From: Stieleria neptunia
GTDB lineage: Bacteria > Planctomycetota > Planctomycetia > Pirellulales > Pirellulaceae
Assembly: GCF_007754155.1 (NCBI RefSeq)
Contig: NZ_CP037423.1
Span: 5,700,567 to 5,764,566 of the forward strand
Reading direction: 5' to 3'
Length of the DNA stretch: 64,000 bases
Positions 12,188 through 48,475 of the stretch are shown piece by piece; position 1 is the first letter of the stretch; the number at the start of each line of letters is the position of its first letter. The notes below the pieces were generated by a model, which saw nothing but the letters and a program-made list of their open reading frames with translations, did no database searches and was not told where the DNA came from. The position numbers and the translations under genes were made by a program.

Positions 12188-12244
12188 GTGGGATAGGCTT
12201 TCAGCCTGTCGATGTCGCAATGACAGGCTGGAAGCCTATCCCAC
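12188..12244. repeat. Family A REP-like inverted pair
   Basis: Two inverted 23-base units. Each begins GTGG and contains a 5-bp hairpin (AGGCT..AGCCT type; here AGGCT-TTC-AGCCT on the left and AGGCT-TCC-AGCCT read from the right). It lies between flgD and flgE, so it may affect operon mRNA stability or termination. Confidence 0.85.
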
Positions 12245-12322
12245 TCGCAGGATCCAACACCTCTTTCTCATTCTCTTTCATTCCATTTCCAACCAACCAT
12301 CTACCATTTCTAGGGGCAACTT

Positions 12323-13966
12323 ATGTCTAGATCTTTGATGACCGGCATCACCGGACTCCGCACCCACCAACAAAAACTTGACGTCGTCGCCAACAACCTG
12401 GCCAACATGAACACCGTGGGATTCAAGTCCCAGTCGGCTGTGTTCAGTGACTTGATGTACAACGTCGCTCGGGGTGCGTCGGCGGCCACCGAGGACAGCG
12501 GCGGGATCAACCCGCAAGCGATCGGAACGGGGGTCCAGACGGCGCAGATCACGCGAAGCTTCACTCAGGGGACCTTGGAATCGACATCACAGATTTTTGA
12601 CTTCGCGATCCAGGGCGAAGGCTTCTTTACGCTGGGCGGTCAGGCCAATGACAATGTGTACTCGCGCGCCGGGGCATTCTCGCTGGACTCCAACGGCCGT
12701 CTGGTCGACCCGGCGACCGGGTTTTTGGTGCAGCGTATGGGGGACGTCGGCGAAGGTGCCGACGGCGGTGTCGCGTTCCAGGATATCGGCGAGAGTTACA
12801 TCAACGTCCCGATCGGGGCGCCGATCGCTGGTGAAGCAAGCAGCATGGTCAACTTTACCGGCAACCTGCCGTCGAGTTCTTCGCCACCGGTGGCAGAGGT
12901 GTTGCAGTCCTTCACGGGATTTTCGACCGCTGGCGGTGTGGCCGACGGAACAACGTTGCTGAATGATTTGACGATCAACACCGATGACTACGTCGCCGGT
13001 GACGTCATTGAGATTTCTGGAACCAACCCCGACGGTACGCCGTTCGCCGTGAACATGAACGCGGAAACCGCGACGCTGCAAGATCTGGTCGACTCGCTCA
13101 ACGGTGCACTGACCGGCGCGACGGCTGCTTTGGCCGCCGATGGGACGCTGTCAGTCACTGCGGATACGACCGGCGAGGGCTATCTCAGCCTGTTGCTCCG
13201 CGATGCGTCCGGCAACGTGGGCGGATCAAGCTTCTCCGCCAACTCGATGTTCCTCAGCACCCAGGGTAGCAACGGCGACACGTTCGAGTTGTCGATGGAA
13301 GTGTTTGACGTGCGAGGCGAAAGCCACCGGATCAATTTTGACTTCTTGAAAGAGACTGCCAATACCTGGTCGGTGACCGCCGACATCCGCGCCGAATCCG
13401 GCGTGTTGATCGATAATTCGGTGTTGAATCTGACGTTCAACGAAGACGGCAGCTATGGGCTGGCGGGGTTGACCGGAGCGGGGGACGCGAACATCGAAAT
13501 TCAATTCAACGGGATCACCGCACCACAAGAAATCGCGCTCGACTTCTCCGGGCTGAGCCATCTTGCGACGGATTTCTCGATCACGCAGATGCAAGACGGG
13601 ATCCCGCCGGGATCGTTGACTTCCGTCGCGGTTTCCACGACCGGTGAGTTGACGGGATTGGCGTCCAATGGACGGGCGATTCCGCTTGCCCAACTTGCGA
13701 TCGCCACGTTCAGCAATCCCAACGCACTCGACGCCGTGGGTAGCAACTATTTCAAGCAATCCATGAGCAGCGGAGAAGCATCGCTGGGAACCGGGATGTC
13801 CGGCAACCGGGGGCAGATCATGGGGGGCCAGCTGGAACGATCCAATGTGGACATTGCCCAAGAATTCACGCAGTTGATCGTCGCTCAGCGAGGTTTTTCG
13901 GCCAACGCAAGGACGATCACCGTGTCGGACGAAATGTTGGAAGAGCTGACCAACATCATCCGATAA
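12323..13966 (+). CDS. flgE: Flagellar hook protein FlgE
   Basis: 547 residues. The N-terminus (SLMTGITGLRTHQQKLDVVA, then NNLANMNTVGFKSQ) is the conserved rod/hook motif shared by FlgE, FlgF and FlgG, and the C-terminus (NVDIAQEFTQLIVAQRGFSA, then NARTI) is the matching closing helix. The length and large internal domains mark it as FlgE rather than the shorter rod proteins. FlgE polymerises into the hook under the FlgD cap. ATG at 12323 is preceded by AGGGG at 10 bases. It is the last gene before a strong hairpin at 14015-14044. Confidence 0.95.
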   Translation: MSRSLMTGITGLRTHQQKLDVVANNLANMNTVGFKSQSAVFSDLMYNVARGASAATEDSGGINPQAIGTGVQTAQITRSFTQGTLESTSQIFDFAIQGEGFFTLGGQANDNVYSRAGAFSLDSNGRLVDPATGFLVQRMGDVGEGADGGVAFQDIGESYINVPIGAPIAGEASSMVNFTGNLPSSSSPPVAEVLQSFTGFSTAGGVADGTTLLNDLTINTDDYVAGDVIEISGTNPDGTPFAVNMNAETATLQDLVDSLNGALTGATAALAADGTLSVTADTTGEGYLSLLLRDASGNVGGSSFSANSMFLSTQGSNGDTFELSMEVFDVRGESHRINFDFLKETANTWSVTADIRAESGVLIDNSVLNLTFNEDGSYGLAGLTGAGDANIEIQFNGITAPQEIALDFSGLSHLATDFSITQMQDGIPPGSLTSVAVSTTGELTGLASNGRAIPLAQLAIATFSNPNALDAVGSNYFKQSMSSGEASLGTGMSGNRGQIMGGQLERSNVDIAQEFTQLIVAQRGFSANARTITVSDEMLEELTNIIR

Positions 13967-14014
13967 TCGCAGCCTAGTCAGGCAGGCGTTTGATCGAAGC
14001 CCGCGTACGTCAGC

Positions 14015-14044
14015 ACGTGACATTGCGACGCCGCAATGTCACGT
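14015..14044. terminator. Perfect 13-bp hairpin after flgE
   Basis: ACGTGACATTGCG pairs perfectly with CGCAATGTCACGT across a 4-base loop, 49 bases after the flgE stop. No T-run follows, so it is either a non-canonical terminator or an mRNA 3'-end stabiliser for the hook operon. Confidence 0.5.
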
Positions 14045-14061
14045 CCGTTGACTCTCAGGGT

Positions 14062-14142
14062 GTTAGCGGAACGGCGCGAGCCGTCCGGTCGCGTTTCAGA
14101 AATACCGTGAAAGACCGGAGGGCTCGCGCCCTGCCGCTAACA
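14062..14142. repeat. Family B REP-like inverted pair
   Basis: The left unit has tail GTTAGCGG and hairpin ACGGC-GCGA-GCCGT (14071-14084). The right unit, inverted, has the same tail and hairpin AGGGC-GCGA-GCCCT (14119-14132 on the other strand). GCGA is a GNRA-type loop. Confidence 0.88.
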
Positions 14143-14175
14143 TCGTAGCGGGACTGCGCGAGCGGGCTGTCGATG

Positions 14176-14225
14176 GTGAGCCGCTGGCCGTAAGGCCTCG
14201 GGCTGGCACCGAAATGCCCGGCCGC
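14176..14225 (+). repeat. Family C REP-like unit
   Basis: Starts GTGAGCCGC, then a hairpin GGCC-GTAA-GGCC, then TCGGGC; a degenerate inverted partner ends in CCCGGCCGC. Part of a 250-bp block of repeats filling the gap 13967-14414 between flgE and the lipoprotein gene; no gene is seen in that gap. Confidence 0.8.
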
Positions 14226-14246
14226 ATTGGACCGCCGGAAGAATAA

Positions 14247-14303
14247 GTGGGATAGGCTTCCAGCCTGTCATAGCGAAAACGACAGGCTAAAAGCCTATCC
14301 CAC
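14247..14303. repeat. Family A REP-like inverted pair
   Basis: GTGGGATAGGCTTCCAGCCT on the left and its inverted counterpart (with one change, GGCTAAAAGCC) on the right. It is adjacent to the B and C elements. Confidence 0.85.
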
Positions 14304-14414
14304 AATCAATCCCCGCCACGCATACTTCCGACGGTCCTTGCGCGGTTCACGGCTCGCCAAATCAACAGACTGAGAGCCGTGCGGATTTTTCTTGCGGACA
14401 ATCCTTTGGGCCGG

Positions 14415-14633
14415 CTACATGATGCCGCCGTGTGTCCGAATCGGGGTCAGGTGACTGGGCGAATCAAGGAACCAGAATCGTTCCCACTCGTCGATCACCG
14501 ACCGCATGTCTTCAGAGGTGTACAGCAATTGCTGGACACGGCGTTCGGGACGCGGCGAATAGATCGGAAGAAAGCATCCGACGGAGCTGCTGACACAGAC
14601 GGCCAGCATGGTGAGTTGGAACAAGCGACGCAT
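14415..14633 (-). CDS. Small lipoprotein of unknown function
   Basis: 72 residues. A short signal peptide ends in a lipobox (VSSSVGC, Cys20), so it should be lipid-anchored. The rest (RRVQQLLYTSEDMRSVIDEW, then a Pro/His/Thr stretch ending THGGIM) looks like a compact conserved helix and tail; I have the impression this tail is recurrent in planctomycetes but cannot verify it. ATG at 14633 is preceded by GGAGGA at 7 bases, which is why it is preferred over the upstream in-frame Met. It lies 54 bp downstream of the HU-like gene on the same strand and may be co-transcribed. Confidence 0.75.
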   Translation of the reverse strand: MRRLFQLTMLAVCVSSSVGCFLPIYSPRPERRVQQLLYTSEDMRSVIDEWERFWFLDSPSHLTPIRTHGGIM

Positions 14634-14687
14634 AGGACGTTCCTCCGTGAACGTTTTCAGTTGGGCCACGACCCCTGTGACGAGCGA

Positions 14688-15086
14688 TTAATCTTCGTCC
14701 CAGCGACCGGTATTCTTGTTGGACGGCGTGGTATCGGTTGGAGAAGCCGGGGGGCTCGCGTTTGCGTCGTCGACGCCACCTGACAGTCCGTCATGGTGAA
14801 CGTCGAGTTCTGCGTCTTGAACCCTGACCTCCATGTACTTGCCAGGCTTAAAGGTGACGACGTACTTTTCCGGTACGATCACCTCATCACCTGTCCGGGG
14901 GTTACGCGCACGGCGTGCAGCCCTCGGCTTGACTTCGAAAACGCCAAAATTCCTCAGCTCGATTCGACCCTCGCGGACAAGCGTCTCGATAATCGAATCA
15001 AAGGTCTTTTGGACGATCTTCTTCGTCTGTTGTTGCGTTAGGCCTACTTCGTCAGAAATCGTTCGGACGATGTCTTTCTTGGTCAC
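14688..15086 (-). CDS. HU/IHF-family nucleoid protein with acidic tail
   Basis: 132 residues. Residues 1-90 are a full HU/IHF fold: [20 protein letters not shown], then [20 protein letters not shown] with the beta-arm Pro in [13 protein letters not shown] proteins bend DNA and organise the nucleoid. After residue 100 comes an Asp/Ser/Pro/Thr tail not found in classical HU. The start codon is GTG (15086), supported by AGGAG 6 bases upstream. The lipoprotein gene follows on the same strand. Confidence 0.93.
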
Positions 15087-15506
15087 TCCCGACTCCTGCT
15101 GGCTCTCCGCCGACCCAAAAAACGCTTGAGGGCGAATGATGTAACCCTTTGCAAGCTTTCAACTTAAAGGCCGAAGCATAGGGATGCCGGAGTCGGTCGT
15201 CAAGCCAACGCCCCCATGTGAACGGGGGCGGATTCCTGGCAAAGCAGACCGCTCTTGGTATCAGTGTCGGCATGTCGATGCCGGATTCTTGAACCATTCC
15301 GCATAACCGGAAATATTGTTGCGACTGGAGCTGCGGAGCGGGAGCAGAACTGCAGGGCCGGGGCATCGACGGCACGCGAACCGGTCTGCCGCGGCGGAAT
15401 GTTGGGGGGAACCGTTGGCGTCGGTGAGACGCCCGCTGGCTAAGATGTCGCTTGTCGATGCCATGGACATTGATGCCGCGCAGGCTGTCGCTTGATCGAG
15501 TCAATC

Positions 15507-15557
15507 GTGAGCCGCTGGCCGTCAGGCCTCGGGCGGGCGCCGGAATGCCCGGCCGCT
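15507..15557. repeat. Family C REP-like unit
   Basis: GTGAGCCGC tail, hairpin GGCC-GTCA-GGCC, then TCGGGC and a degenerate inverted end CCGGCCGC. Confidence 0.78.
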
Positions 15558-15645
15558 GACGCGTCGCGGCTCACTCATTCGACGGGGCGTGAGCGCGTCG
15601 CGTCTTACTAAGAACCGCACAGGAAAGACGTGTCGGAGCGAGCGC

Positions 15646-15702
15646 GTGGGAGAGGCTTCCAGCCTGTCATTGCAGCGTCGACAGGCTGGAAGCCTAGCCC
15701 AC
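15646..15702. repeat. Family A REP-like inverted pair
   Basis: GTGGGAGAGGCTTCCAGCCT and its inverted partner GGCTGGAAGCCTAGCCCAC; lies 41 bp from the 3' end of the secreted-protein gene. Confidence 0.85.
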
Positions 15703-15743
15703 TTGTCTTCCCTGCGTTGCCAACACCTTCAGAGCCAAAGCCC

Positions 15744-16868
15744 CTATCGCAGGGCGCTGTAGAGGCTGCGTTTGCTGGCCTTGGGAATCGCGATCGGTGT
15801 CGGCTGGACGTCGAACGGGATCATGGCGACGTGATTCGCCGCGACGCCTTGACGACCGGGGACGCGTTTGGCGCGTGAGGCGTTCAGGGCGCTGTATTGT
15901 TGCATCAGCCGTCGGATTTCCGGCTCGTACTGAAACCCGCCGCCGGGCAATTCGCGTCCCAGGGATTCAAAGCTTCCGATGGTGACGACGGAGCGATCGC
16001 GGTCATGGTACTGGTAGGCTTCCTCGCCCTGCTTGCGAAGTTCTTTGACCATTTTGTCGGCCTGGCGGGCGAATTTCGCCATCCGCTCTTCGCTCGGCTT
16101 GAACTTGTCTTGGTTCTTGGCGCCGAGGATCGTGCCGCAGGCGTTGAAGGTTCGGACCACGACGGTGAACTTGCCATCGGCTTCCAGCAGGTTGTAGTCG
16201 GTGCCTTCGTTGAGTTGTTTGACGAATGAATCGACTTCGGGTTGTTGGAAGAACCCTTCGGGCAGGAGCGGATTTCGGGTGACGAAGGCGGCCGCCATTG
16301 GATTGCGTCCGCGGCCTTTACGCGATTTGAACAATTGCTCGCCGAATGCCTTGATCATCGACGCCGGGGATTCCGTGTTGTATTCGGCGGCCACGTCGTC
16401 GGGATCGCGGAACACATCCAGGTCGGCCGTTTTAAGTCGTTCAAGGTCGTCGTCGATACTTTCGTGATTGACCGAGTCGTATTCGCCGACCAGAACGGCA
16501 TACGCCTGGTATTGGTGGGGGTTCGCGTAGCGGGCCCGTCTGCCGGTCGCGTTGTCTTCTCCGGCGGTGCCGGTGAAATTGAAGTCTTCTTTGTAGATGA
16601 ACGCGGGCAATCGAAGCTCACTGCGGATTTCGACGGCGGTTCGTTGGGCGCGGTCTTTGGCGTCTTCGCCGACAAAGGTCGTCGCGAGCAAGAGCCAGGG
16701 GCCATCCTCTTCGGTGAGCACGAACGAGTCGGCTTCGTCGATCGGTTTGGATTTTCCGAACAGCCGCAACAGGCTCGGCGGTGCAGCCTGGGCTGGGGCA
16801 GCGGACAGCCCGGTGACAACGGCGGCGGTGCAAAATGCGGCAAACGAACGTCGGGAGGGACGCATCAT
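15744..16868 (-). CDS. Secreted protein of unknown function
   Basis: 374 residues. Tandem ATGs at 16868/16865 begin a signal peptide (RRSFAAFCTAAVVTGLSAAP, cleavage after AQA). The mature part opens with a strand-helix unit (GPWLLLATTFVGEDAKDRAQ, then VEIRSELRLPAFIYKEDFNF) that resembles the first half of a SPOR-like fold; a related unit (NACGTILGAKNQDKFKPSEE region, then VVTIGSFESLGRELPGG) occurs later. A peptidoglycan- or envelope-associated role is possible but inferred. The frame stays open upstream to 17099 through a repeat, but that part lacks a ribosome site and is not counted. Confidence 0.75.
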   Translation of the reverse strand: MMRPSRRSFAAFCTAAVVTGLSAAPAQAAPPSLLRLFGKSKPIDEADSFVLTEEDGPWLLLATTFVGEDAKDRAQRTAVEIRSELRLPAFIYKEDFNFTGTAGEDNATGRRARYANPHQYQAYAVLVGEYDSVNHESIDDDLERLKTADLDVFRDPDDVAAEYNTESPASMIKAFGEQLFKSRKGRGRNPMAAAFVTRNPLLPEGFFQQPEVDSFVKQLNEGTDYNLLEADGKFTVVVRTFNACGTILGAKNQDKFKPSEERMAKFARQADKMVKELRKQGEEAYQYHDRDRSVVTIGSFESLGRELPGGGFQYEPEIRRLMQQYSALNASRAKRVPGRQGVAANHVAMIPFDVQPTPIAIPKASKRSLYSALR

Positions 16869-17000
16869 CGGTTGGTTTCCCTGGATATCGAGTCGATAGA
16901 TCGTCAACTCGTCCCTAGGTATCAAATCCGATGTCGGGGGCGAAAGAGAGTTTTGCGGGGGATGGCACGACGCGCCGCTCGCTGACCGGGCTGTCGATTT

Positions 17001-17070
17001 CGTGAGCCGCGACGCGTAAGCGGCCGGGCATTCTGGCGCCCGCCCGAGGCCGTACGGCCAGCGGCTCACC
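17001..17070. repeat. Family C REP-like inverted pair
   Basis: The left unit GTGAGCCGC carries hairpin CGC-GTAA-GCG; the right unit, inverted, carries GGCC-GTAC-GGCC. The same tail on both ends and a different but still self-pairing stem make this the clearest family C pair. Confidence 0.85.
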
Positions 17071-17140
17071 ATTGACTCAGCAGATCCCGAATAGATCAAC
17101 AGGCCGTGACGCTTCCCGCTGTGCCTGTGTTTGACGAGGT

Positions 17141-17219
17141 GTTAGCGGAACGGCGCGAGCCGTCCGGTCGCGTTTCAAAAACACCGTGAAAGACCGGAGG
17201 GCTCGCGCCCTACCGCTAA
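17141..17219. repeat. Family B REP-like inverted pair
   Basis: Nearly identical to the copy at 14062-14142: hairpins at 17150-17163 (ACGGC stem) and 17198-17211 (AGGGC stem) with GTTAGCGG tails outward. The gap 16869-17287 holds only repeats. Confidence 0.87.
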
Positions 17220-17287
17220 AAATATATCACGGCGCGTCCCGCCGGGATGTGAACCCATGGTTCCGCACGAGGCGTGCCCGGCGGTGG

Positions 17288-19408
17288 TTACAACTTCGGC
17301 ACGGGGCGTTTGGGTGCCTTTTTGAGCATCCGTTTTTTGTCGTCACTGGCCGGCCGCGGGGGATTATTGTTATTGCCGGGGTTGCGCCGAGGCGGCGGGG
17401 ACAGATCGGTAAAGTCTTCCGTCCATGTCCAACCGATCGGCACTTCCAGTTCCTTCTTGGCGAGCAATTCCCACGGTGTGCCGGGGTGCTCGTTGACGAC
17501 GGTTTCCAGTAGCGTCTTGGCCGTTTCCGCTTCGCGTTTCCATTTGCTGCCGACGGTCACCTCGTCGCTCGGCTCCAGGATCCAGGTGTTGTTCTTTTCT
17601 TTTTCGAACGACATCCCCAGTTTCGCTTTGGCCAACATGGCGTTGTAGGTTTCCGTGCGAACCTTCTGGGCCAGGACGCGTCCCATGGCCAGATCGAATC
17701 CTGCTCGCCAGCGCGGGCTCTCCTCTGACTCACGGTACTTCATGCCCGGCTCGAGCGTCATCGCCATCCGTGCCAGGGGTTGTTCCAGTCGGGCCGCGTC
17801 TTGCTGTGCGCGGGTCAAGTCACCGGACAGTCGGGCTTGGTCGGCTCCGATGAAACGCAGCCTCGGGCGGCTGATCCCCGTGACCGGTCTCAGTTGGGCT
17901 GCGGTCACCAGGGCGCTCCGCAGCGGGCTCGATTTGACTTTGGCGACGTAATCGCGCGGCGACAAATAGTCGGGGCGATAGCGAGACATCGCGACCGGGT
18001 CAAAAAAGTATTCCATGTCCGAAGCATACGCGGCCACGTCGCGCTTGTTGACTCGGCGGGAAACGTTGCGGTTGGGGTGCACGTTGAAATAGATCCCACC
18101 GGTTTCATAGCTCAGCCGTGTCAGGGCGTAGGGGCCGAACCCGCTGTCGATCGTCGGCTCCTCTTCGAAATTGGCGGTGAACGGCAATTGGACCCGTTCG
18201 GGCAAAAACGACTCGGGGCCTTGGTCGACCGATGCCCATTGCGGGGTTTGGTCATACTTGGGATCGGGGTCGATGTACTTGACCAACGTTTCGCGGCGTC
18301 CGAAGGGGGCCGGGACGCCAATGATGTGAACCGGCATGCCGTATTTACGGCAAATCTCGATCGTGTCTTCGACCTGTTGCTCGTCATCGCCACGCTCGTC
18401 CGTGACGACGATCAACAGCACATTCCGCTGCGGTTCGTTGCCTCCACGGCTGACGCGTAGCGACTTGTATTGTTCGGCGGCACTTTTGACCGCGGTGAAG
18501 ACGCGTTCCGTTCCGGACGAATCGGTTTCGATGTTGTCGACGATCTGTTTGATTTCGGCGACGTCTTCGGTGGGGGTCTCGGTGTAGAGCGTGATGGTTT
18601 CGCCGAACCCGATGACGGAATTGAGCAATTGGGCGTCGTGGTTCATGCCACGTCGACGTTGGGCGGCCAGTTCTTTTTCGTCCTTGGCTTTGGCGTCGGC
18701 GACAATGCCCAACTCGTCATAGATCCGGTCGAATCGGTCTCGGATCTCTCGTCGTTGGCGGTGCAAGGATCCGCTTTGGTCGAACAGCCAGACGACCAAT
18801 GTCGGACGTTCTTCCATCGATTGCAGGATTTCGAAAGTCAGACGGTCGACGGCACCGGCCGCTCCACTGGCGCCTTCACCAACGGTGCCTTTGCGATCGG
18901 TCAGGCGGTCCATTGGGGCCATCGGTTGGGAGAAAATCCGATTGACTTCGATGTCGCCCAAGTCGCTCTTTTCGAGCTCGACCGGACTGGGGATCTCGGC
19001 GATTTCCGCGAACATCTCAGCCGACGCGTCCGCCATCTCGGCCTCGGCGGTGCTGTTGGCGCCGATCGCGATCTCCGGGATGTCGCTGAAGACGACCTCT
19101 TCGACCAGCGGTTCGGATTCGGTTTCCACCGGCGGCGAAACAATCACCACCGCTTCTTCGTCCTTGAAAACCGCACTGGGCGCGATCGCCAATGAGACGA
19201 TGATCAGAATGTGCACGGCCATGCTGCCGAACAGCGCCGCCGACTCGTCCGTCTGCAAAACCGGTTCTTCTTCCAGTTCCTCCTCGTCCCAGGCATCGAC
19301 CTCGTCCAGATCTTGATCCCCCAGCTGCTGATCCCCCAGATCGAAAGCGTCGTCGGGACGCTCCGGAAACTCGGCCGAATCGGTGCTGGGAAATTCAGTG
19401 GTACTCAT
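17288..19408 (-). CDS. Membrane-anchored von Willebrand factor A protein
   Basis: 706 residues. A very acidic cytoplasmic N-terminus (residues 18-56) precedes one membrane helix (about 61-80, SMAVHILIIVSLAIAPSAVF). From about 203 a VWA domain begins (TLVVWLFDQSGSL) with the MIDAS motif DQSGS at 210-214, so it should bind a divalent metal and a protein ligand. The C-terminal ~200 residues are helical and basic (ends Lys-rich, AKRPVPKL-type tail). VWA membrane proteins often serve as assembly scaffolds with MoxR ATPases, but none is next to it. Partner and role unknown. Confidence 0.85.
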   Translation of the reverse strand: MSTTEFPSTDSAEFPERPDDAFDLGDQQLGDQDLDEVDAWDEEELEEEPVLQTDESAALFGSMAVHILIIVSLAIAPSAVFKDEEAVVIVSPPVETESEPLVEEVVFSDIPEIAIGANSTAEAEMADASAEMFAEIAEIPSPVELEKSDLGDIEVNRIFSQPMAPMDRLTDRKGTVGEGASGAAGAVDRLTFEILQSMEERPTLVVWLFDQSGSLHRQRREIRDRFDRIYDELGIVADAKAKDEKELAAQRRRGMNHDAQLLNSVIGFGETITLYTETPTEDVAEIKQIVDNIETDSSGTERVFTAVKSAAEQYKSLRVSRGGNEPQRNVLLIVVTDERGDDEQQVEDTIEICRKYGMPVHIIGVPAPFGRRETLVKYIDPDPKYDQTPQWASVDQGPESFLPERVQLPFTANFEEEPTIDSGFGPYALTRLSYETGGIYFNVHPNRNVSRRVNKRDVAAYASDMEYFFDPVAMSRYRPDYLSPRDYVAKVKSSPLRSALVTAAQLRPVTGISRPRLRFIGADQARLSGDLTRAQQDAARLEQPLARMAMTLEPGMKYRESEESPRWRAGFDLAMGRVLAQKVRTETYNAMLAKAKLGMSFEKEKNNTWILEPSDEVTVGSKWKREAETAKTLLETVVNEHPGTPWELLAKKELEVPIGWTWTEDFTDLSPPPRRNPGNNNNPPRPASDDKKRMLKKAPKRPVPKL

Positions 19409-20360: not shown

Positions 20361-20398
20361 CGGCGACGGCGTTGAACGTTCGAGCCCGCGTTTGTCGA

Positions 20399-20477
20399 GC
20401 GGAAAAGGGGTCAGGTACCAAAAACCAAATGGCCCGAAGGGTGCTTCGCATTTTTGGTACCTGACCCCTTTTCCGCG
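20399..20477. repeat. Long inverted repeat with GGGGTCAGGTACC arms
   Basis: Two 26-base arms (20399-20424 and about 20452-20477) running GCGG, AAAAGGGGTCAGGTACC and five A, and its inverse, around a ~27-base centre with its own small stem (CGAAG..CTTCG). It lies between convergent phosphatase and PEP-CTERM genes and could act as a two-way terminator. Confidence 0.9.
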
Positions 20478-20506
20478 GCACCCTCAGTTTAAACGTCGAC
20501 GCACCA

Positions 20507-21175
20507 CTAGCGGCGCCGGCGTTGAAGGACCAAACCGCAGCTGGCGAGCATCAGCATCGTTGTCGCGGCGGGTTCCGGAATGGCGACCGCACCCACCGTG
20601 ACGACGCCCGGCGTGAACGTAAAGTTGAGGTCGGCTAGGCTTTCGTCGGTGAAAAAAGATTCCACGGCACCGCCCACTTCGTATTGGTCACCGGCGGTTG
20701 CCGCTGGCATCGCCCCACCGAGCAGGTGCCCTATGTCGACCGTCGCGAGTAGATTGCCCGACGTCACAGAAACATCCAAAGGATCCCCCAGCGAGTCGAT
20801 GCTCAGGTCGTACAGTGTGATCCTGCTGCCTGAATTGCTTTGCGTTGAGGGAAGGTCGTCCGCGATCGATTCGCTGGTCCCGGCGAAAATGTAGTCGGCG
20901 TCGGCAAGGAACGTTTCCGATTGTGGATCGACGAACACCAAGGAACTTCCCGGAGCTGCGCTCAGTGGTGTGATCTCCAAGATCAGCTCAAATTCAGCCA
21001 AGTTCTGCGGCGGCGCATCGCTGGAAATCCCAATTTCCAACAGCAGATTGCCGCCCGGGTCGATCGTTCCGCTACCGATCGAGATCTCAAAATCGGCCTT
21101 TGCAGAGGCGACCGACAACAGCCACGCGGTCGAGACGGCAATCAGCAGGCGGTGAAATGCGGAGGGCTTGGGCAT
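20507..21175 (-). CDS. PEP-CTERM sorting-signal protein
   Basis: 222 residues. An N-terminal signal peptide (LLIAVSTAWLLSVASAKA) and a canonical C-terminal PEP-CTERM tripartite tag: IPEPA, a hydrophobic helix (TTMLMLASCGLVL) and a basic end QRRRR. Such proteins are exported and processed by an exosortase. The middle is a beta-rich domain (FEISIGSGTIDPGGNLLLEI onward) with no recognisable enzyme motif. No exosortase gene is in this window. It is convergent with the phosphatase gene across the long inverted repeat. Confidence 0.9.
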   Translation of the reverse strand: MPKPSAFHRLLIAVSTAWLLSVASAKADFEISIGSGTIDPGGNLLLEIGISSDAPPQNLAEFELILEITPLSAAPGSSLVFVDPQSETFLADADYIFAGTSESIADDLPSTQSNSGSRITLYDLSIDSLGDPLDVSVTSGNLLATVDIGHLLGGAMPAATAGDQYEVGGAVESFFTDESLADLNFTFTPGVVTVGAVAIPEPAATTMLMLASCGLVLQRRRR

Positions 21176-21351
21176 CGGTCGTGGTCCGAGAAACGCGCGT
21201 GGAGATTGCCCGCTGCGACGGGAGAATCACTGGGGAGTTCACACAGTAGAATAGTTAGAAACCGAACCGGGATCGAACACTTTCCCGGTCGGTCCCCATT
21301 TTTGCACCGTTGCCCCCGTTGTGATCACGTCGAACTTTCGTCCCAATCACA

Positions 21352-24673: not shown

Positions 24674-25043
24674 GGGGTGTTCCGTGCCGGGGGCTCATGT
24701 CGCCTCCGCGGGGGACATCGGTTCTTTTACTGCAGGATTTGGCAACTCATTTAGTTTCTCTCCCTCTGGGAGAGACGGCATTTGCGCAGCAAGCAATCGC
24801 CAGAGAGGGTTCGCGCTGCAAAAGTCCTGGCGCCAAACGCGACGATCAATTCCGCCGCTTCTACAATCGGCATCCCGTGCGTCGGCAGGTGTTTCGACGA
24901 TAAAACCCAGCCGCGCTTCGCCCGATGGTTGATTGGTCGCGCGCCCGTCAGGCTGGGCACTCGCTGACCAACTGGCCGTTTGGGAATCAGCTCCGGGCGT
25001 GCCGGCGTGCGAACGCATGAGGGATACGCCGGCTGATTTTGCA
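24674..25043. other. Gap upstream of the acyltransferase gene
   Basis: No gene seen. A small inverted repeat (CTCTCCC..GGGAGAG, near 24758-24776) is present. Upstream activator sites for the sigma-54 promoter at 25044 would be expected here; I could not define one. Confidence 0.5.
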
Positions 25044-28730: not shown

Positions 28731-28753
28731 GACAGGCTGGAAGCCTATCCCAC
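28731..28753 (-). repeat. Single family A REP-like unit
   Basis: One half of the usual pair (GACAGGCTGGAAGCCTATCC then CAC), between the 3' ends of rsmG and the UDP-glucuronate decarboxylase gene. Confidence 0.82.
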
Positions 28754-35335: not shown

Positions 35336-35392
35336 GTGGCGTGAGCTTCCAGCTTGCGTTTCACGAGACGACAGGCTGGAAGCCTATCCCAC
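35336..35392. repeat. Family A REP-like pair, mixed subtypes
   Basis: The left unit is subtype A2 (GTGGCGTGAGCTTCCAGCTT) and the right unit subtype A1 inverted (GGCTGGAAGCCTATCCCAC). The two halves do not match one another, so pairing must be within each half. It separates convergent YkgJ and oxidoreductase genes. Confidence 0.87.
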
Positions 35393-35403
35393 TGATTGTC
35401 CGC

Positions 35404-37883: not shown

Positions 37884-38048
37884 TTGACGATTAGTAGGTC
37901 ACGCTGTGCGTGACTGGCATGCACAGCATGCCCTACTCTGCCGCGGCGGATGCGCTGGTTGGGGTGACATGAATTTTCAGCGTAAGTAGAAAGTGTTAAA
38001 CTGAAACACAACACGCTTCTTCGTCATTTCCTCGTTTCCGAAGGACTC

Positions 38049-42149: not shown

Positions 42150-42154
42150 CCGGG

Positions 42155-42667
42155 CTACTGCCAAAAACTGTTGCTGGTTGATAGGTGGGGCAAGGGATGG
42201 TCCCGACCGGGGCGCGGTGGATTTGTGGCCGAGGTTGTCACCGGGCTAGGCAGCGTGTTTTGCGGCGGGGTACTAAAACGGGACGATGCGGGCTGCGGCA
42301 CAGCCGACCAAATTGCGACGGGGCGTTTCTGCAGGGTACGCGTCTCCGCAGCGATGACTGGCGTCGCCGAGGCCGGCACGGCGACTTGGGGAAGGTGACG
42401 TTGCGGCACGTTGGCTGGTGCCGCCGGGCGAAATGGAGTCGCCGTCGGGAGCCGGCGGTGGTAGCTGGACCCGCTCGATGGCTTGGAACGCTGGCGGCTG
42501 AAGTTTGCGTTTTTGTTGCTTGTGTAGAACGCCCCCATCCGTTTGTTCATGGGTTTGGCCCAGCCCCAGCCGCTGTTACCGCCGGCGCATGCATCACCCC
42601 CGGCGATCAAGCCGGACCCGAGAACGGAGACAGCGACAAGCAATACGAATGGATGAAGGCGATTCAT
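42155..42667 (-). CDS. Small secreted Pro/Ser-rich protein
   Basis: 170 residues. Signal peptide (LHPFVLLVAVSVLGSGLIAG) then a Trp/Gly-containing segment (GNSGWGWAKPMNKRMGAFY) and a low-complexity Pro/Thr/Ser/Arg tail. No family recognised. Convergent with the kinase gene, with only 5 bp between the stop codons. The ATG (42667) has no strong ribosome site, so this is a probable rather than firm gene. Confidence 0.55.
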   Translation of the reverse strand: MNRLHPFVLLVAVSVLGSGLIAGGDACAGGNSGWGWAKPMNKRMGAFYTSNKNANFSRQRSKPSSGSSYHRRLPTATPFRPAAPANVPQRHLPQVAVPASATPVIAAETRTLQKRPVAIWSAVPQPASSRFSTPPQNTLPSPVTTSATNPPRPGRDHPLPHLSTSNSFWQ

Positions 42668-42999
42668 CAGCGGGTCTCATTTTTACGGGGTCGGAATCGG
42701 TCGGAAAACCGTTGGGATGGGCTCCAAGGCTGGCAGTTCACTTCACCGAGCGGAGGCGGCGACCAAATGTTACGACGTTGACATCGAAAATAAAAACTTT
42801 TTCGCACGCCCATTGATTCGCCGCGAGCCGGCCTCCGGTCATCATTCTGCCCCCATCGTTCTGCCAATCTCTTGCCCGAACTCGGCGGCGTGTTAAGATG
42901 GAGTGAACCTCGGGAGTGATCGCGTGTCACTTCCGACGCATCGTTTTCCGCCGACAAGCTGCAATTTTTTTAGTGAGTTGGCGGTGACCGACCAGTCAG
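42668..42999. other. Gap before the tmRNA gene
   Basis: About 330 bp with no gene seen. A possible sigma-70 promoter on the plus strand is TTGCCC (42872-42877) and TAAGAT (42894-42899) with a 16-base spacer, about 100 bp before the mature tmRNA end. Confidence 0.4.
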
Positions 43000-43369
<370 letters not shown>

Positions 43370-43377
43370 TCACAAAG

Positions 43378-43410
43378 AGCTGCTTTCGAATTTTCGAAAG
43401 CAGCTTTTTT
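43378..43410 (+). terminator. Rho-independent terminator of ssrA
   Basis: A 13-bp perfect stem (AGCTGCTTTCGAA paired with TTCGAAAGCAGCT) followed by TTTTT, 8 bases after the tmRNA end. Confidence 0.95.
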
Positions 43411-43446
43411 CGTACACAGACATCCCATTGGACGATCGCTGTCTTG

Positions 43447-43470
43447 TGCGTGCGTGCGTGCGTGCGTGCG
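43447..43470 (+). repeat. TGCG tetranucleotide microsatellite
   Basis: Six perfect TGCG copies in the gap (43411-43675) between the tmRNA terminator and the membrane protein gene. No gene is seen in that gap. Confidence 0.9.
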
Positions 43471-43675
43471 ATGGATGGCGAAACATGTCGATCCCATTGC
43501 TCGGCGCGCGGAGCACGACACGTTGGAGCTAGGGCAACAGGACGGTAATGATCAGCGTCGAATCGACGCTGTTGTCGCAATCGTACGTCGTCCGGCAGAG
43601 CACTCGGGGATCGCGCAAGACGTTGGAAAATGCCGGGCGCTGGATGGTCGTGCTTGGGGTTGTCGCGTGTTGAGA

Positions 43676-45316
43676 TTACGACCCGAGTTGTAACCAGGAA
43701 GGACGAAGGAGCATGACCAATCCGAGCAGCAAGATCACGGCACCGCTGAGCAGTTTTAGCCACCGTCCCTCACGCTCCTGCAGTTTGCGGTGCGAGAGCG
43801 TCACGACGACCACCGTGACCAGCAGCGTATCGTCCAGCATGTACGCCACGATATACACCGCCAAAAACGCATAGTTCTTCCAGGCGGGGTAATCCTGGAT
43901 CGTCAGCACTTGAGTGTACAGTGCCGGCAGCCCGGCCGTGCACAACAGTTCGATCATGTTGACGATGACCGCCAGAACCACCGCACCGGTCAAGGCCACC
44001 GTCAGATACTTGGCGCTGACGATCTCGCGTACACGACGGTACAACTTAGGCTTGCTCGATTCGGGGATCGACAACGAAAGCCCTTGCTTGAACGCAAAAA
44101 AGTCCTTGACGTTGATCACGCCGATGAACAGCGCCAGCAAGCCCAATGCAATTTGCACCGGTCTCGCGATTCCGATCAACAGGAAGATATTCAGCCAGGC
44201 TGCCATGAACGCGAAATAGGCTAACCCGCTGATGAAGACGAACGTCCCCGCGATCAGCAAAATCTTGCGGCGGTCTTTGATGTTGACCAGCACCGAGAGC
44301 AGAAACACCAGCACCCACATGGCGCAGGGATTGAACCCGTCGACCAAACCGATCGCCAACGTAAACAAGGGCATGCCGAGTTCTGAAGCGTTTAGCGGCC
44401 CCAGCATCGGAACATCGATCGTGTCGCTCGTCACCACCTCCAGCGGCGTTTCGCTTTCACCGGACTGCGACGGAGTGGCTTCATCGGGGAGTTCCAACAG
44501 GTCGATCGGAATGTCATCGACGGAAACCTCCGGCGTCGTCACTTGAGCGACCAGCAAGAAAGTGGCGTAAGCTTCCAGCTTGGGCATCGTCAACATCGCA
44601 AGTTGGAAGCTTACGCCACGCTGCTGATTCCGGCTCAACGGCTTTGATGGTTTCATCCCCGAGACGTCCCTGATCAACTGGTCCAGTTGTGCACCCGTGA
44701 TTTCGTCGCCTTGGTAGCCGATCAGGATGCGTCGGGCAAAATCAATCGTCGGCAATCCCGGCGGGCTTCCGGCCTTACGGCACAGTGTTTCCCACTGCGA
44801 CCGAGCCGCCGCAGATCGATCGACATCATGGATCGCGAATCGGATCGCCGGCCAGCGTTGTTGCAAGGTCGGCAGAAACGCTTTCAGTTTTTTGCATTTG
44901 GGGCAAGTGGTACGCGTGTAGAGGTTGGCGGTGAAAAGTTGTTCGATCTGCGGGCCCGTTCGGGTCGCATCGTCGAAGCCAAAGTACATCCGGTCACAGG
45001 TGTAGAACGCCGGCAGCAACGGTTTTTCTCGGCCCGCTTGTTTGGACAGTTTGTACAGCCGAAGCAGTTGCGTTTTTTCATGAAGCACATCATGAATTTG
45101 AATGTCCAACCCGTTGATTCGCTGTTTCAGTTGATCGCAATACGCCTGAACGGTTTCGGCGGATTCGCGGTCGCTGCGGACGAACACATCGATGCGGATT
45201 CGATTCGTCGTCTCATCGGGCGGGCGGTCGTCGGCGCGTACCCAAGTCAGCGATGCGGACGACAAGAACAGAAAACCCAGTAGCGCAATTCGGAAAGCCA
45301 TGGTTGCTCGGCCCAT
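43676..45316 (-). CDS. Thioredoxin-fold/DsbD-like membrane protein
   Basis: About 546 residues. Signal peptide (IALLGFLFLSSASLTWVRA), a periplasmic redox part with C138-P-K-C141 in NLYTRTTCPKCKKLK and a cis-Pro region (SPPGLPTIDF), then a membrane domain starting near 313 with the CcdA/DsbD motif GLVDGFNPCAMWVLVFL and at least six helices. Such proteins carry electrons across the membrane for disulfide reduction or cytochrome maturation. Only one Cys (331) is seen in the classic membrane pair region. Residues 233-252 are encoded by a REP-like element. Start uncertain: Mets at 45316 and 45301 both precede the signal peptide. Confidence 0.8.
   Translation of the reverse strand: MGRATMAFRIALLGFLFLSSASLTWVRADDRPPDETTNRIRIDVFVRSDRESAETVQAYCDQLKQRINGLDIQIHDVLHEKTQLLRLYKLSKQAGREKPLLPAFYTCDRMYFGFDDATRTGPQIEQLFTANLYTRTTCPKCKKLKAFLPTLQQRWPAIRFAIHDVDRSAAARSQWETLCRKAGSPPGLPTIDFARRILIGYQGDEITGAQLDQLIRDVSGMKPSKPLSRNQQRGVSFQLAMLTMPKLEAYATFLLVAQVTTPEVSVDDIPIDLLELPDEATPSQSGESETPLEVVTSDTIDVPMLGPLNASELGMPLFTLAIGLVDGFNPCAMWVLVFLLSVLVNIKDRRKILLIAGTFVFISGLAYFAFMAAWLNIFLLIGIARPVQIALGLLALFIGVINVKDFFAFKQGLSLSIPESSKPKLYRRVREIVSAKYLTVALTGAVVLAVIVNMIELLCTAGLPALYTQVLTIQDYPAWKNYAFLAVYIVAYMLDDTLLVTVVVVTLSHRKLQEREGRWLKLLSGAVILLLGLVMLLRPSWLQLGS
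44562..44619. repeat. Family A (A2) REP-like pair inside a coding region
   Basis: Both units are subtype A2 (GTGGCGTAAGCTTCCAGCTT and GTTGGAAGCTTACGCCAC). It lies wholly within the DsbD-like gene and is read through in frame, adding about 20 residues (RGVSFQLAMLTMPKLEAYAT) in the linker between redox and membrane domains. Confidence 0.9.
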
Positions 45317-45516
45317 GATGCGTGTTGGAAATCGGTCGCCTACTTTCAGGACGAAGCTTGTGTCTTTATCGAAGACGTTGAAGGTCACGATTCATCGTTC
45401 GACCTCCCCTCGCTGCGCTCGACCCTCCTGCCAGGAGGGTGACTTCAAAAACCGCACGACCGCCTTGCGATCAGTGCACGCAGCATACCAATGGCGTGCT
45501 TCGAATCGTCACAGGC

Positions 45517-46161
45517 TCAGGCTGACTCTTCAGCTTTGGCGCGCAGGTTGGCGACCGAGTACCGACGCACCGGTTTGGAATACATCGTGCGATGCGCGTA
45601 CTCTTCGTCGGGCTGCTTACAGCGCTGAATGAACTCCACAAACTGATCGACAAACAAGTCGACCTGCTTCCAATTGGTGAACTCATAATCGAAACGCGTG
45701 TCGGTCGGACCGCCCTCTTTCTTGGCGACCCACTGCATCAGTTTTCGTTTCAGCCAGTTGTACTTGGAATAGGTCAACGCGCCGGCGAAATGAATCGTCA
45801 ACAGGGGATTCCAATCGGTCTCGTGTAAGTAGGCTGCGGTGATCTTTCGCACTTCATCCTGTTCGCTGTCGTCTTCGCTCATGATGCCCAGGCTGACCGA
45901 AAAAAACGCCGATGGCATTTCGTGCAAGAGGTCGCGAAACTGTTTGAGATACTCCGCCAGACGGACGTCGTAATGGGAGTAGTGGATCGGGGAGCCGACG
46001 ATGACCGCGTCGTAGGCATCCAACGCAATCGGCCGATTGGGATCGACCGCAATGTTGTGCCGGTCCGTTGCAATGCCTTGCTCGGTCAGTCGTTGAGAGA
46101 TGTGACGGGCGATCTTTTCGGTTTGGCCTTCGTCAGTCGCAAAGAGAATCAGAGCGCGCAT
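45517..46161 (-). CDS. HemG-like flavodoxin (protoporphyrinogen dehydrogenase family)
   Basis: 214 residues. N-terminal flavodoxin FMN site ILFATDEGQTEKIARHI, then AVIVGSPIHYSHYD and TIHFAGALTYSKYNW, which match the menaquinone-dependent protoporphyrinogen IX dehydrogenase HemG. The C-terminal ~35 residues are extra and basic. HemG oxidises protoporphyrinogen in haem synthesis; other quinone reductases of this fold are possible. ATG at 46161. It is downstream on the same strand of a repeat-rich gap and convergent with nothing near. Confidence 0.85.
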   Translation of the reverse strand: MRALILFATDEGQTEKIARHISQRLTEQGIATDRHNIAVDPNRPIALDAYDAVIVGSPIHYSHYDVRLAEYLKQFRDLLHEMPSAFFSVSLGIMSEDDSEQDEVRKITAAYLHETDWNPLLTIHFAGALTYSKYNWLKRKLMQWVAKKEGGPTDTRFDYEFTNWKQVDLFVDQFVEFIQRCKQPDEEYAHRTMYSKPVRRYSVANLRAKAEESA

Positions 46162-46275
46162 TCAGTCTGTCCTTGCCGGCGCATCACCGGCTTGTTGATT
46201 TTATCGATGTTCCGAACCAAGGCGTTGGCATGAACCCCATGCCTTTTCTCGTGACGCCAAACGGGGTGTTGTTTT

Positions 46276-46331
46276 GTTAGCGGCAGGGCGCGAGCCCTCC
46301 GGTCTTTCGAGCCGAAACCGGAGGGCTCGCG
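46276..46331. repeat. Family B REP-like pair, truncated
   Basis: The left unit has tail GTTAGCGG and hairpin AGGGC-GCGA-GCCCT (46285-46298); the right unit is inverted and cut at GGCTCGC. The gap 46162-46581 contains only this element and the next. Confidence 0.85.
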
Positions 46332-46366
46332 GGCTGTCGATTGAGTCGGGATCTGCTGAGTCAATG

Positions 46367-46434
46367 GTGAGCCGCTGGCCGTAAGGCCTCGGGCAGCGTC
46401 GCAGTGCCCGGCCGCTTACGGGCGCGCGGCTCAC
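46367..46434. repeat. Family C REP-like inverted pair
   Basis: The left unit is GTGAGCCGC with hairpin GGCC-GTAA-GGCC; the right unit, inverted, ends GCGGCTCAC and contains a different stem around GTAA. Confidence 0.82.
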
Positions 46435-46581
46435 AAAAACGACAGCCCGCTCGCGCCGTGCCGCTGACTCATTCGGTGTCAATATCGATGGTATTCAGGC
46501 TTGGCCGGAACGCAAAAACGAGCTGCGCCGCGTGGCCCCTAGCTCACGCATGCATCTTTCAATCAATAGGCCGTTCAGACG

Positions 46582-46710
46582 TTAGAACATCGCGGTGAGC
46601 GTTCCCGCCACCGTTTTGGCGAAGATCAAAAGCGACATGATCGCGATCACGATCACCGAAATCCAAAAGATCTTCTCATGGGGTGAGTCCTTCCAATTGA
46701 TGCGGCTCAT
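46582..46710 (-). CDS. 42-residue single-span membrane protein
   Basis: A short cytosolic lead (MSRINWKDSPHEKIF) and one membrane helix (WISVIVIAIMSLLIFAKTVA). ATG at 46710 has AAGG at 6-8 bases upstream. No known function. The composition is clearly that of a membrane peptide and the divergent neighbour is an integral-membrane methyltransferase. Confidence 0.6.
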   Translation of the reverse strand: MSRINWKDSPHEKIFWISVIVIAIMSLLIFAKTVAGTLTAMF

Positions 46711-46866
46711 CGTTTTGCCTTGGGGTTTGAAGACCGGGGTACTCGGATCCAGGCATCCCGAACGCTTTGACACGACGCCGGGAATTTGCAGAATGCATCT
46801 TCTGTGCCAATTTCGCCCTGTTCCGATTGACCGTAACATCGTGCAACATCGTCGCGCGTTTGCCGC

Positions 46867-47334
46867 GTGTTGGCCATTTTCGCACACTCCGTCCACGAGA
46901 CCGGTCGATTGCTCGCGTTCCTGATTGTTGCACAGTTTGTGCTCGCCGCCACACTGGTTTTGTCGGCCCGCTGGTCGCCGCTGCCCGTTGCGGCGTTGGT
47001 GATCGCCGCGCCGGGGATCGCGCTGGCGGTTTGGGCGTGGGCGAAAGTGGGATGGCGGAAGATTCGGATCCATCCGACGACGACCGACGAAACGGAGTTG
47101 CTGACCGACGGGCCGTACGGAATCGTCCGTCACCCGATGTATGCGGGGTTGTTGTGGTTTACCGCTGCGTTGCTGTGGACCCCGTTGCTGTGGTGGCGGG
47201 TCGTCGGCTGGGTCGCGCTGCTGGTGGTTCTGTATGCCAAAGCGAAGCATGAGGAACAATCGATGCGGGACCGCTTTGAGGGGTACCACGCTTATCAGCA
47301 GCGGGTCGGGCGGCTGTTTCCGATTCGCTGGTAA
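46867..47334 (+). CDS. Isoprenylcysteine methyltransferase-like membrane protein
   Basis: 155 residues, GTG start (46867). Three to four membrane helices (LLAFLIVAQFVLAATLVLSA, LPVAALVIAAPGIALAVWAW, TAALLWTPLLWWRVVGWVAL) and the family motif LTDGPYGIVRHPMYAGLLW followed by KAKHEEQSMRDRFEGYHAYQ, the SAM-binding end of ICMT/PEMT-type enzymes. In bacteria these methylate small molecules or lipids; the substrate is unknown. The next gene starts ~170 bp later. Confidence 0.85.
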   Translation: MLAIFAHSVHETGRLLAFLIVAQFVLAATLVLSARWSPLPVAALVIAAPGIALAVWAWAKVGWRKIRIHPTTTDETELLTDGPYGIVRHPMYAGLLWFTAALLWTPLLWWRVVGWVALLVVLYAKAKHEEQSMRDRFEGYHAYQQRVGRLFPIRW

Positions 47335-47505
47335 CCGAAGGAAGAAAGGCTGATTGCAAGGCAGTTGGCAATCGATCTGACGGCCGCATCCGATCCCAAG
47401 CGATCTCGACTCCACCGGCACGTGGTCTGCTGGTGTATAATCGATCAGTCCCGACGGTGTTTTCTGGTGACGATCCTAGGACCACGAAACTGCAGGCGGT
47501 GTGTC

Positions 47506-48432
47506 ATGGATAACGCGGAGTCTTCATCTTCGATTGCGGCCCTCGACGATCCGGCCGAACGGCGACGCGTCGGGTTAGACGAAAACAGGCGGATCGCAAA
47601 TCATCTCGGTGAGATCGCCAGCTTGCTGGAATCACAACACGCCAGCGAGTTCCGTGTGTCGGCTTACCGCAAGGCGGCCGGCACTTTGTTGAATCTTCAA
47701 ACCCCCGTGCGTTGGATTGACCAGAAGCACGGAATCGAGGGCTTGATTCGAATCGAGACGGTCGGGCAATCGATCGCCAGTTTGATCGACCAATATCTGA
47801 GAACCGGTCGCGTTCCGTTGCTGGATCGGTTGCGTGGCGAGGCGACTGCGGAAAAGATTTTTACGACGTTGCCCACGATCGGGCCCGAGTTGGCCCATCG
47901 AATCTATGACGCGCTACACGTGGAGACCCTGCCCGAACTGTATAGCGCGGCGATCCACGGCAAACTCGGTCAAGTTCCCGGGATTGGTCGAAAACGTGCC
48001 TCCGCGATTGAAGAGGTGTTGGCGGAACGTTTGCGACGAAACCCCAGTCCGATGACGCCCCTGTATCCGCAAACAGATCGTTCGATACCAGTTGCCGAGA
48101 TTCTGGATGTCGACGCCGAGTACCGTCGCAAGGCAGGGGAAGACAAACTGCCCAAAGTCGCGCCCACCAAATTCAATCCCGGCGGCGTGGCTTGGTTGCC
48201 GATCTTGCATACCCAGCGAGACGACCGCCACTACACCGCCTTGTATTCCAACTCCGCACGCGCGCACGAATTAAATACGACGAAGGATTGGGTGGTGATC
48301 TACCGAGACGACGACCAACAACACGGCCGCTGGACGGTGATCACGTCCCAGTTCGGGAAACTACACGGGTGTCGTATCATTCGAGGCCGCGAAGACGAGT
48401 GCCGCGAAATCTATTTGAGGAACCCGCAGTGA
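47506..48432 (+). CDS. Helix-hairpin-helix DNA-binding protein of PolX-like type
   Basis: 308 residues. Residues ~25-180 resemble the N-terminal part of family X DNA polymerases: NRRIANHLGEIASLLESQHA, then SAYRKAAGTLLNL and the two HhH units (FTTLPTIGPELAHRIYDAL and LGQVPGIGRKRASAIEEVL). No polymerase nucleotidyl-transfer motif (GSxxR...DxD) follows. Instead there is a distinct ~100-residue C-terminal domain with FNPGGVAWLPILHTQRDDRH and a basic end. It probably binds DNA ends or gaps without synthesis; function is unassigned. ATG at 47506. Confidence 0.8.
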   Translation: MDNAESSSSIAALDDPAERRRVGLDENRRIANHLGEIASLLESQHASEFRVSAYRKAAGTLLNLQTPVRWIDQKHGIEGLIRIETVGQSIASLIDQYLRTGRVPLLDRLRGEATAEKIFTTLPTIGPELAHRIYDALHVETLPELYSAAIHGKLGQVPGIGRKRASAIEEVLAERLRRNPSPMTPLYPQTDRSIPVAEILDVDAEYRRKAGEDKLPKVAPTKFNPGGVAWLPILHTQRDDRHYTALYSNSARAHELNTTKDWVVIYRDDDQQHGRWTVITSQFGKLHGCRIIRGREDECREIYLRNPQ

Positions 48433-48452
48433 CGAAACATTGACCGAAAAAA

Positions 48453-48475
48453 GTGGGAGAGGCTCCCAGCCGATT
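48453..48475 (+). repeat. Single family A REP-like unit
   Basis: GTGGGAGAGGCTCCCAGCC: compensated stem (GGCT/AGCC altered to GGCTC..). It overlaps the stop region of the cytochrome gene by a few bases and separates two convergent genes. Confidence 0.7.

Follow-up and report, generated by a model that had tools for sequence, protein, structure and literature searches.

Repetitive extragenic palindromic (REP) sequences of the GTAG superfamily are, in the accessible text of Di Nocera et al. (2013, PMC3733652), short hairpins with an unpaired GTAG-type tetranucleotide that occur as singles or inverted pairs and flank genes for REP-associated tyrosine transposases (RAYTs). GTGG variants (O. terrae) and REPs inside genes are mentioned there, and R. 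baltica is named among the genomes with several REP families and many tyrosine-transposase genes with flanking repeats. In REPINs (REP doublets forming hairpins), as portrayed in the available sections of PMC8049555, the inverted pair is the replicating unit and the RAYT gene is single-copy. Here we describe family A, a 23-base repeat of the same design in the one-contig genome of Stieleria neptunia (G000; 10,975,817 bases, 10.98 Mb). It came to attention in a stretch of 64,000 nucleotides (G000:C1:5700567-5764566, hereafter the window), where a sequence-only reading had taken eight sites for REP units or bacterial interspersed mosaic elements mobilised by a RAYT. Both the observation and its interpretation stand: family A is a well-documented, ordinary kind of REP/REPIN-RAYT system, very probably a population of non-autonomous REPs and REPINs moved by a RAYT.

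All eight window coordinates carry the unit, in 13 copies at five or fewer mismatches, of which twelve have 0-2 and one (48453) has diverged by 5. The hairpin had first been read as five base pairs followed by a GTGG tail, but those five are the inner part of an 8-bp stem closed by a TCC loop (GATAGGCT-TCC-AGCCTGTC and CGTAAGCT-TCC-AGCTTGCG in the two subtypes), and GTGG is a head that stands 5' of it. Both consensus units fold as single-stranded DNA into GTGG, the 8-bp stem and the TCC loop, with energies of -4.8 and -5.5 kcal/mol for the GTGG strands versus -3.6 and -3.4 for their complements. This layout accords with the REP/REPIN design of a GT[AG]G head at 0-2 bases, at least 7 stem pairs and a short loop. 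The GTGG strand has T-G as its third stem pair, and its complement C-A; where the REPs of E. coli have two conserved mismatches that form a bulge (PMC8266576, in its accessible part), family A has this one T-G pair instead.

Stem changes in family A are largely compensatory, in line with the paired differences between subtypes that the sequence-only reading had pointed out. Among 56 distinct units from the G000 sample and the window, found by similarity and unfiltered for pairing, pair 1 is G-C in 26 and C-G in 18, pair 5 is G-C in 30 and A-T in 18, pair 2 is A-T in 20 and G-C in 19, and pair 3 is T-G in 41. A covariation set of 65 units, which is biased (65 of 89 distinct units were hand-picked, and rows from RAYT flanks were pre-filtered for at least 6 pairs), has 90.8% paired cells versus 76.7% when shuffled (0/500 shuffles as high) and a covariation score of 0.440 versus 0.201 shuffled (0/500), falling to at most 0.145 when slid; both sides vary in six of the eight stem pairs, a level reached by 42/500 shuffles. 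Candidates anchored on GTRG-N8-TCY-N8 beside 31 RAYT genes, taken with no pairing filter, form at least 7 of 8 pairs in 148/165 cases, versus 1/427 when the bases of each flank were shuffled 20 times.

Family A is abundant throughout the genome. At two or fewer mismatches GTGGSRTARGCTTCCAGC occurs 621 + 592 = 1213 times, versus 4 + 1 = 5 times for the reversed control, and the full 23-mers at the same threshold number 615 for subtype 1 and 408 for subtype 2. An even sample of sixty evenly spaced 20-kb stretches holds 126 units, 63 per strand, and none in reversed sequence. When this sample and the window (together 1.264 Mb) were scanned without a consensus for GTRG-headed 8-bp hairpins, the four most recurrent sequences (49, 23, 9 and 9 copies) were all family A; a fifth family A sequence, with 3 copies, was level with two unrelated hairpins. 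A supposed unit desert of 1 Mb at 1.96-3.0 Mb was rejected (9 even-sample units fall in the 2-3 Mb bin), as was a strand bias, both strands being used in every megabase bin. The 57-base element described below had no match in plasmid and phage collections.

As had been proposed, the copies sit near the ends of genes. Against genes predicted with a purpose-written codon-score program, 82/83 sites (G000 sample including the window) are intergenic although 76% of bases are predicted coding, the exception being the window pair at 44562. The nearest stop codon is a median of 19 bases away (n=67) and the nearest start 138.5 (n=54). The 77 sites that could be classed divide into 43 co-directional, 23 convergent and 11 divergent gaps, these classes making up 60%, 15% and 24% of classed intergenic bases, respectively.

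Units occur as singles, inverted pairs and clusters, and among non-overlapping stretches every inverted pair of neighbours no more than 80 bases apart has GTGG on the outside (34/34 in the G000 sample, 7/7 in 400 kb of the congener G005). In subtype 1, 18 of 21 inverted pairs in G000 have a spacer of exactly 11 bases, giving 57-base REPINs. Fifteen strict copies of this length carry 10 distinct spacers, two of which were found in both orientations, and thus the subtype-1 inverted pair seems to spread as one unit, as in the REPINs of PMC8049555. Subtype-2 inverted pairs have spacers of variable length, and arrays also occur. Mixed-subtype pairs, one of which had been reported at 35336 and is real, number 2 among the 83 sites, both with the 11-base spacer typical of subtype-1 REPINs.

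The gene that goes with subtype 2 is elsewhere in the genome: the sequence-only reading had noted no such transposase in the window, and none of 16 genome matches at E <=10 to A1, a profile built on 16 RAYT relatives, falls within 5,700,567-5,764,566. It lies at G000:C1:885838-886539 (234 residues), found with the L038 protein as query, which matched a divergent relative at 885847-886476, and its flanks bear out the proposal that a transposase would carry the unit beside it: three blocks of a unit plus an inverted unit precede the gene and two follow it, with subtype 2 throughout, in both its CGTAAGC and its GGTAAGC form. The A1 profile recovers this one RAYT of the clade at 436 bits, the next match being L038 at 59 bits, and also a 30-residue C-terminal relic that lies among subtype-2 units at 882233-882322. 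The gene product has no match in Pfam, and it scores 71.5 bits against NCBIfam NF047646 (REP_Tyr_transpos), below the cut-off of 80, so a Pfam search alone would leave family A an orphan. Pfam PF01797 was rejected as a route to this RAYT, since the 8 genes that it finds in the genome include none with family A at the locus. The protein collection holds 369 homologues at E <=0.001, several named RayT by their source, the closest being from Stieleria sp. ICT_E10.1 (Stieleria sedimenti) and Planctomycetes bacterium TBK1r.

By profile and fold match to E. coli TnpA-REP (4ER8), this gene is a predicted RAYT with the HUH Y1 fold and catalytic motifs. Against the PDB the A1 profile finds 4ER8 at 7.3e-6, the sole sequence under E 0.1, with one other match up to E 1 (0.14). 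A structural model of middling confidence (pLDDT 71.7, predicted template-modelling score 0.62) likewise has 4ER8 as its sole fold match under E 0.001 (2.7e-6; template-modelling score 0.43 by query); matches further down include IS608/IS200 transposases and tRNA-His guanylyltransferases. The HuH, WQ and Y motifs align with those of the E. coli enzyme (PMC8266576, accessible part), the proteins differing in length (234 residues versus 165 in the 4ER8 chain). W173, Q174, D179, H180 and R183, invariant in the 16 A1 rows, align with E. coli W94, Q95, E100, H101 and R104, which the available text of PMC6006769 discusses for GTAG recognition. Like the TnpA-Y1 subclasses of that paper, the RAYT clade has WQ and YIxxNP motifs and GT[AG]G-headed REPs, but Table 1 there gives only [ND]HxH for the HuH motif, a form to which the clade does not conform: 27 of 31 RAYTs have SHHH and L094 has SHYH, the pattern is unmatched in L077, and NHVH appears only in the distant L050 and L052.

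G000 holds further genes of related types. L038 (G000:C1:10890261-10890962), one of the eight genes found with PF01797, is another RAYT; the REPs that accompany it, GTACGACGGCCCTTCCGGGCCGTCGC and GTAG variants, have GTAC or GTAG heads and a similar 8-bp design. Five RAYT-like genes (L288-L292; frames of 417-524 codons) have no adjoining family A; one of them, at 5769919, lies about 5.4 kb beyond the right end of the window, and the one that was read, L289, has NHMH and YVDLNP motifs and resembles subclass 2.3 as it appears in the accessible part of PMC6006769.

A scan of genome contigs found 38 loci, 26 of which are RAYTs at 52% identity or more, and the association with flanking units recurs across them. 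L075-L098, some of them near-identical, have GTRG-headed 8-bp hairpins in their flanks in 24/24 cases, and in both flanks in 22; for the remaining two the available 3' flank is just 23 and 85 bases long. Flanking units are also present at L044-L048, L050 and L051, and L073 and L074 were covered by the anchored-candidate survey of 31 RAYTs. GTGG is the rule in this set, whereas GTAG names the superfamily of PMC3733652; GTAG itself is found at L080, L082 and L093. The main flanking stem types begin GA, CA, CG, CC or AA, and these types track the phylogeny of the RAYTs: placed on a 30-RAYT tree (omitting L050, whose type was not recovered), stem type requires 7 changes versus a shuffled mean of 14.8, with 0/200 shuffles as low. 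The CG type, which is subtype 2, forms one clade at 90/85. The GA type needs 5 changes and the CA type 4, so the subtype-1 RAYTs are not one clade. On this tree the row of L052 is very long and 9 of 27 inner branches are starred.

Across 98 genomes (G000 included; counts of subtypes 1 and 2 only), a RAYT at 55% identity or more is present in seven, that of G004 being partial, and all seven hold at least 45 units. Four of the other 91 reach that number: G001 with 57, G005 with 960, and the drafts G029 and G037 (89 and 78% complete) with 145 and 174. Where the RAYT is flanked by subtype 1, as in G013 and G026, there are 296 and 100 subtype-1 units and zero of subtype 2; G002 and G012, whose RAYTs are 90 and 87% identical to that of G000, have subtype-1/subtype-2 counts of 145/410 and 44/211.

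A tree built on six genes arranges the six congeners as ((G001,G013),(G000,(G002,(G012,G005)))), with support of 100/99 or more, and the subtype-2 RAYT occupies one common locus in G000, G002 and G012. At this locus in G005 the gene is absent and one repeat block bridges the two flanking genes on one contig, so that G005 seems, by this comparison, to have lost the RAYT through recombination between flanking arrays; the absence could also be an assembly effect, with the gene on a short contig (the smallest of 20 sampled contigs is 4.1 kb). The G005 units show no clear decay in a 400-kb sample, where exact copies make up 8/13 of subtype 1, 10/23 of subtype 2 and 5/9 of its GGTAAGC form. The RAYT of G013 lies at another locus, where a cluster of subtype-1 units with no RAYT stands in G000, G001 and G005, and another repeat in G012; the G002 junction was not resolved. 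The arrangement fits either an old RAYT lost in the others or an arrival in G013.

The window sites were compared with their counterparts in the five congeners G001, G002, G005, G012 and G013 by means of 500-base flanks (Table 1), and at 7/8 sites the unit is absent from at least one of them. The REPIN at 14247 folds at -21.9 kcal/mol (z -9.7). The three units that G005 has at the counterpart of the mixed pair are subtype 2, subtype 2 inverted and subtype 1 inverted, which suggests, from the alignment, that the pair at 35336 arose from such an arrangement by deletion between neighbouring units. Chance deletion does not predict the 11-base spacing of both mixed pairs, however, and because both have the spacing of REPINs, the pair may instead have formed through arm exchange between REPINs. 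The subtype-2 pair at 44562 encodes a linker peptide in an open reading frame (ORF) of 570 residues, and the frame is open in G000, G012, G005 and G002, the orthologues in G001 and G013 having a different linker; judged from its sequence, the putative product begins with a thioredoxin-like part containing CxxC, after which comes a membrane part resembling DsbD.

Table 1. Family A sites and a structural RNA gene in the window, with the state of each family A site in five congeners.
Feature	Window position	Strand and units	Counterparts in congeners
57-base subtype-1 REPIN	12188..12244	+ 12188-12210, 11-base spacer, - 12222-12244	no unit in 5/5
57-base subtype-1 REPIN	14247..14303	+ 14247-14269, - 14281-14303	no unit in 5/5; intergenic sequence widely different
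57-base subtype-1 REPIN, one mismatch per arm	15646..15702		present in G005; none in G001, G002, G012, G013
Single subtype-1 unit, convergent predicted genes	28731..28753	-	one exact unit in G005; G013, exact pair; G002, relic with 4 mismatches; no unit in G012, G001
Mixed pair, 11-base spacer	35336..35392	subtype 2 + (35336-35358), subtype 1 - (35370-35392)	three units in G005; degenerate subtype-1 pair in G013; none in G012, G001; G002 not bracketed
Single subtype-2 unit, just after predicted stop codon	37861..37883	+	unit with 2 mismatches in both G012 and G002; no unit in G001, G013; G005 not bracketed
tmRNA gene (Rfam)	43000-43372	+	
Subtype-2 pair, in frame within ORF 43676-45388 (-)	44562..44619		unit in G012, G005, G002; G001, G013 not bracketed
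Decayed subtype-1 unit, 5 mismatches, stem largely broken, between convergent predicted genes	48453..48475	+	intact unit in G005; none in G012, G002; G001, G013 not bracketed

Judging by homology to E. coli TnpA-REP, the RAYT, an HUH Y1 transposase that would act on single strands, would recognise the folded strand by its GTGG head, 8-bp hairpin, T-G third pair and TCC loop, cut it and copy the element into intergenic DNA, after which copies would pass to descendants, species differing by the gain or loss of some. Subtype 2, with its singles and its tandem and inverted arrays, would go with the RAYT at 885838-886539, and subtype 1, mostly 57-base inverted pairs, would go with other RAYTs such as those of G013 and G026. 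Since no subtype-1 RAYT was found in G000, subtype 1 may be orphaned there or may be served by the subtype-2 RAYT.

Several results weigh against this account. No cognate RAYT for the 615 subtype-1 copies was found in one-contig G000 with the A1 profile, a difference from the systems described in the accessible part of PMC8049555, and no close RAYT was found in G005 despite its 582 + 378 copies. Among the distant RAYT-like loci, L049 has at best a weak unit and L054-L056 have none. The RAYT tree contains near-copies, and these by themselves make labels cluster in the test. At the window sites the five congeners yielded neither a clean empty site nor a target duplication; the two sites occupied only in G000 (12188 and 14247) could reflect losses elsewhere, and what is seen between congeners is presence and absence, with no direction of change established and movement unobserved. 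Finally, single units in co-directional gaps have GTGG on the coding strand in 16 cases versus 6, which is unexpected for a purely selfish element.

One alternative is that the subtype-2 RAYT also mobilises subtype 1 in trans, which would then not be orphaned; we regard this as a possibility, although a rather improbable one. The two REPINs present in none of the five congeners hint at gain after the split, both mixed pairs show REPIN spacing, and subtype 1 does not look older than subtype 2, since its share of exact copies in the 1.2-Mb sample is 45/70 versus 22/35 (the GGTAAGC form of subtype 2 has 3/21). The tracking of the RAYT tree by the main flanking type over 30 RAYTs speaks against action in trans, as do the lower counts of subtype 1 than of subtype 2 in G002 and G012, which have closely similar RAYTs.

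A second alternative is that the units are RNA hairpins recruited by the host as transcript ends or mRNA stabilisers and kept by selection, their mobility being historical. The short distance to the nearest stop codon, the share of convergent gaps (23/77 sites versus 15% of intergenic bases), the coding-strand excess among singles and the better folding of the GTGG strand all accord with such a role, but placement after stop codons is also expected if insertions in genes and promoters are purged. The unit contains no T run, and of eight terminator-like calls in 11700-16200 (4.5 kb only; 4.3, sd 2.3, when shuffled) two overlap units; moreover, seven of the eight window sites have no unit in at least one congener with conserved flanks. 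We therefore consider this explanation unlikely. That the units are chance palindromes or a common coding or promoter motif is refuted by the counts given above, 1213 copies versus 5 for the reversed pattern and 126 sampled units versus none in reversed sequence, and has next to no probability.

The sequence-only reading had not recognised the family, but its novelty is no more than partial: the available text of PMC3733652 names R. baltica, a member of the same bacterial family (Pirellulaceae), so the general phenomenon there is already published. Family A was compared with the 24 families of that paper by text only and may coincide with one of them. In the literature searched, mostly non-subscription, queries for planctomycete REPs and RAYTs returned, among the matches listed, PMC3733652 and PMC6006769 as relevant, with nothing on a Stieleria repeat with its transposase or on REPs in Pirellula or Rhodopirellula; two further planctomycete papers matched through the name of an author only. 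The points of interest are the SHHH form of the active site, the match between REP type and RAYT tree, and the abundance of a subtype whose RAYT was not found. The hairpins of some 30 naturally occurring RAYT-REP pairs differ at defined base pairs and could serve to study how the transposase recognises its REP, a question taken up in vitro for three REPtrons (PMC8266576, accessible part); for one REPtron that paper reports cutting of GTGG-headed substrates at CC and, weakly, at CA. The genus also offers congeners with and without the RAYT in which to compare the fate of the repeats. Tentatively, and with somewhat more doubt than confidence, we propose that this SHHH-signature clade, invisible to Pfam, has a hairpin code of its own, with outer and middle pairs that switch repeatedly along the RAYT tree, and that genomes can lose the RAYT, as G005 seemingly did, yet keep hundreds of near-perfect copies, in which case REP populations would persist after their transposase is gone, perhaps maintained by the host.

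Other repeats and mobile elements were seen alongside family A. Rfam yielded nothing in the window besides the tmRNA (transfer-messenger RNA) gene. A palindromic repeat, GTAGGTCACGCTGTGCGTGAC...CCCTAC, follows the 37861 unit at about 37891-37930; it is partly tandem in G002 and also occurs at the G012 counterpart of the G013 RAYT locus. L031, L032 and L033 are IS200-like genes with a QxEHHR-type Y motif, beside tandem repeats spaced 81, 291 and about 282 bases. The window also contains other dispersed repeats, at about 16970-17121, 20388-20510, 24708-24877, 45388-45461 and 46253-46468, each of which matches many places in the congeners.

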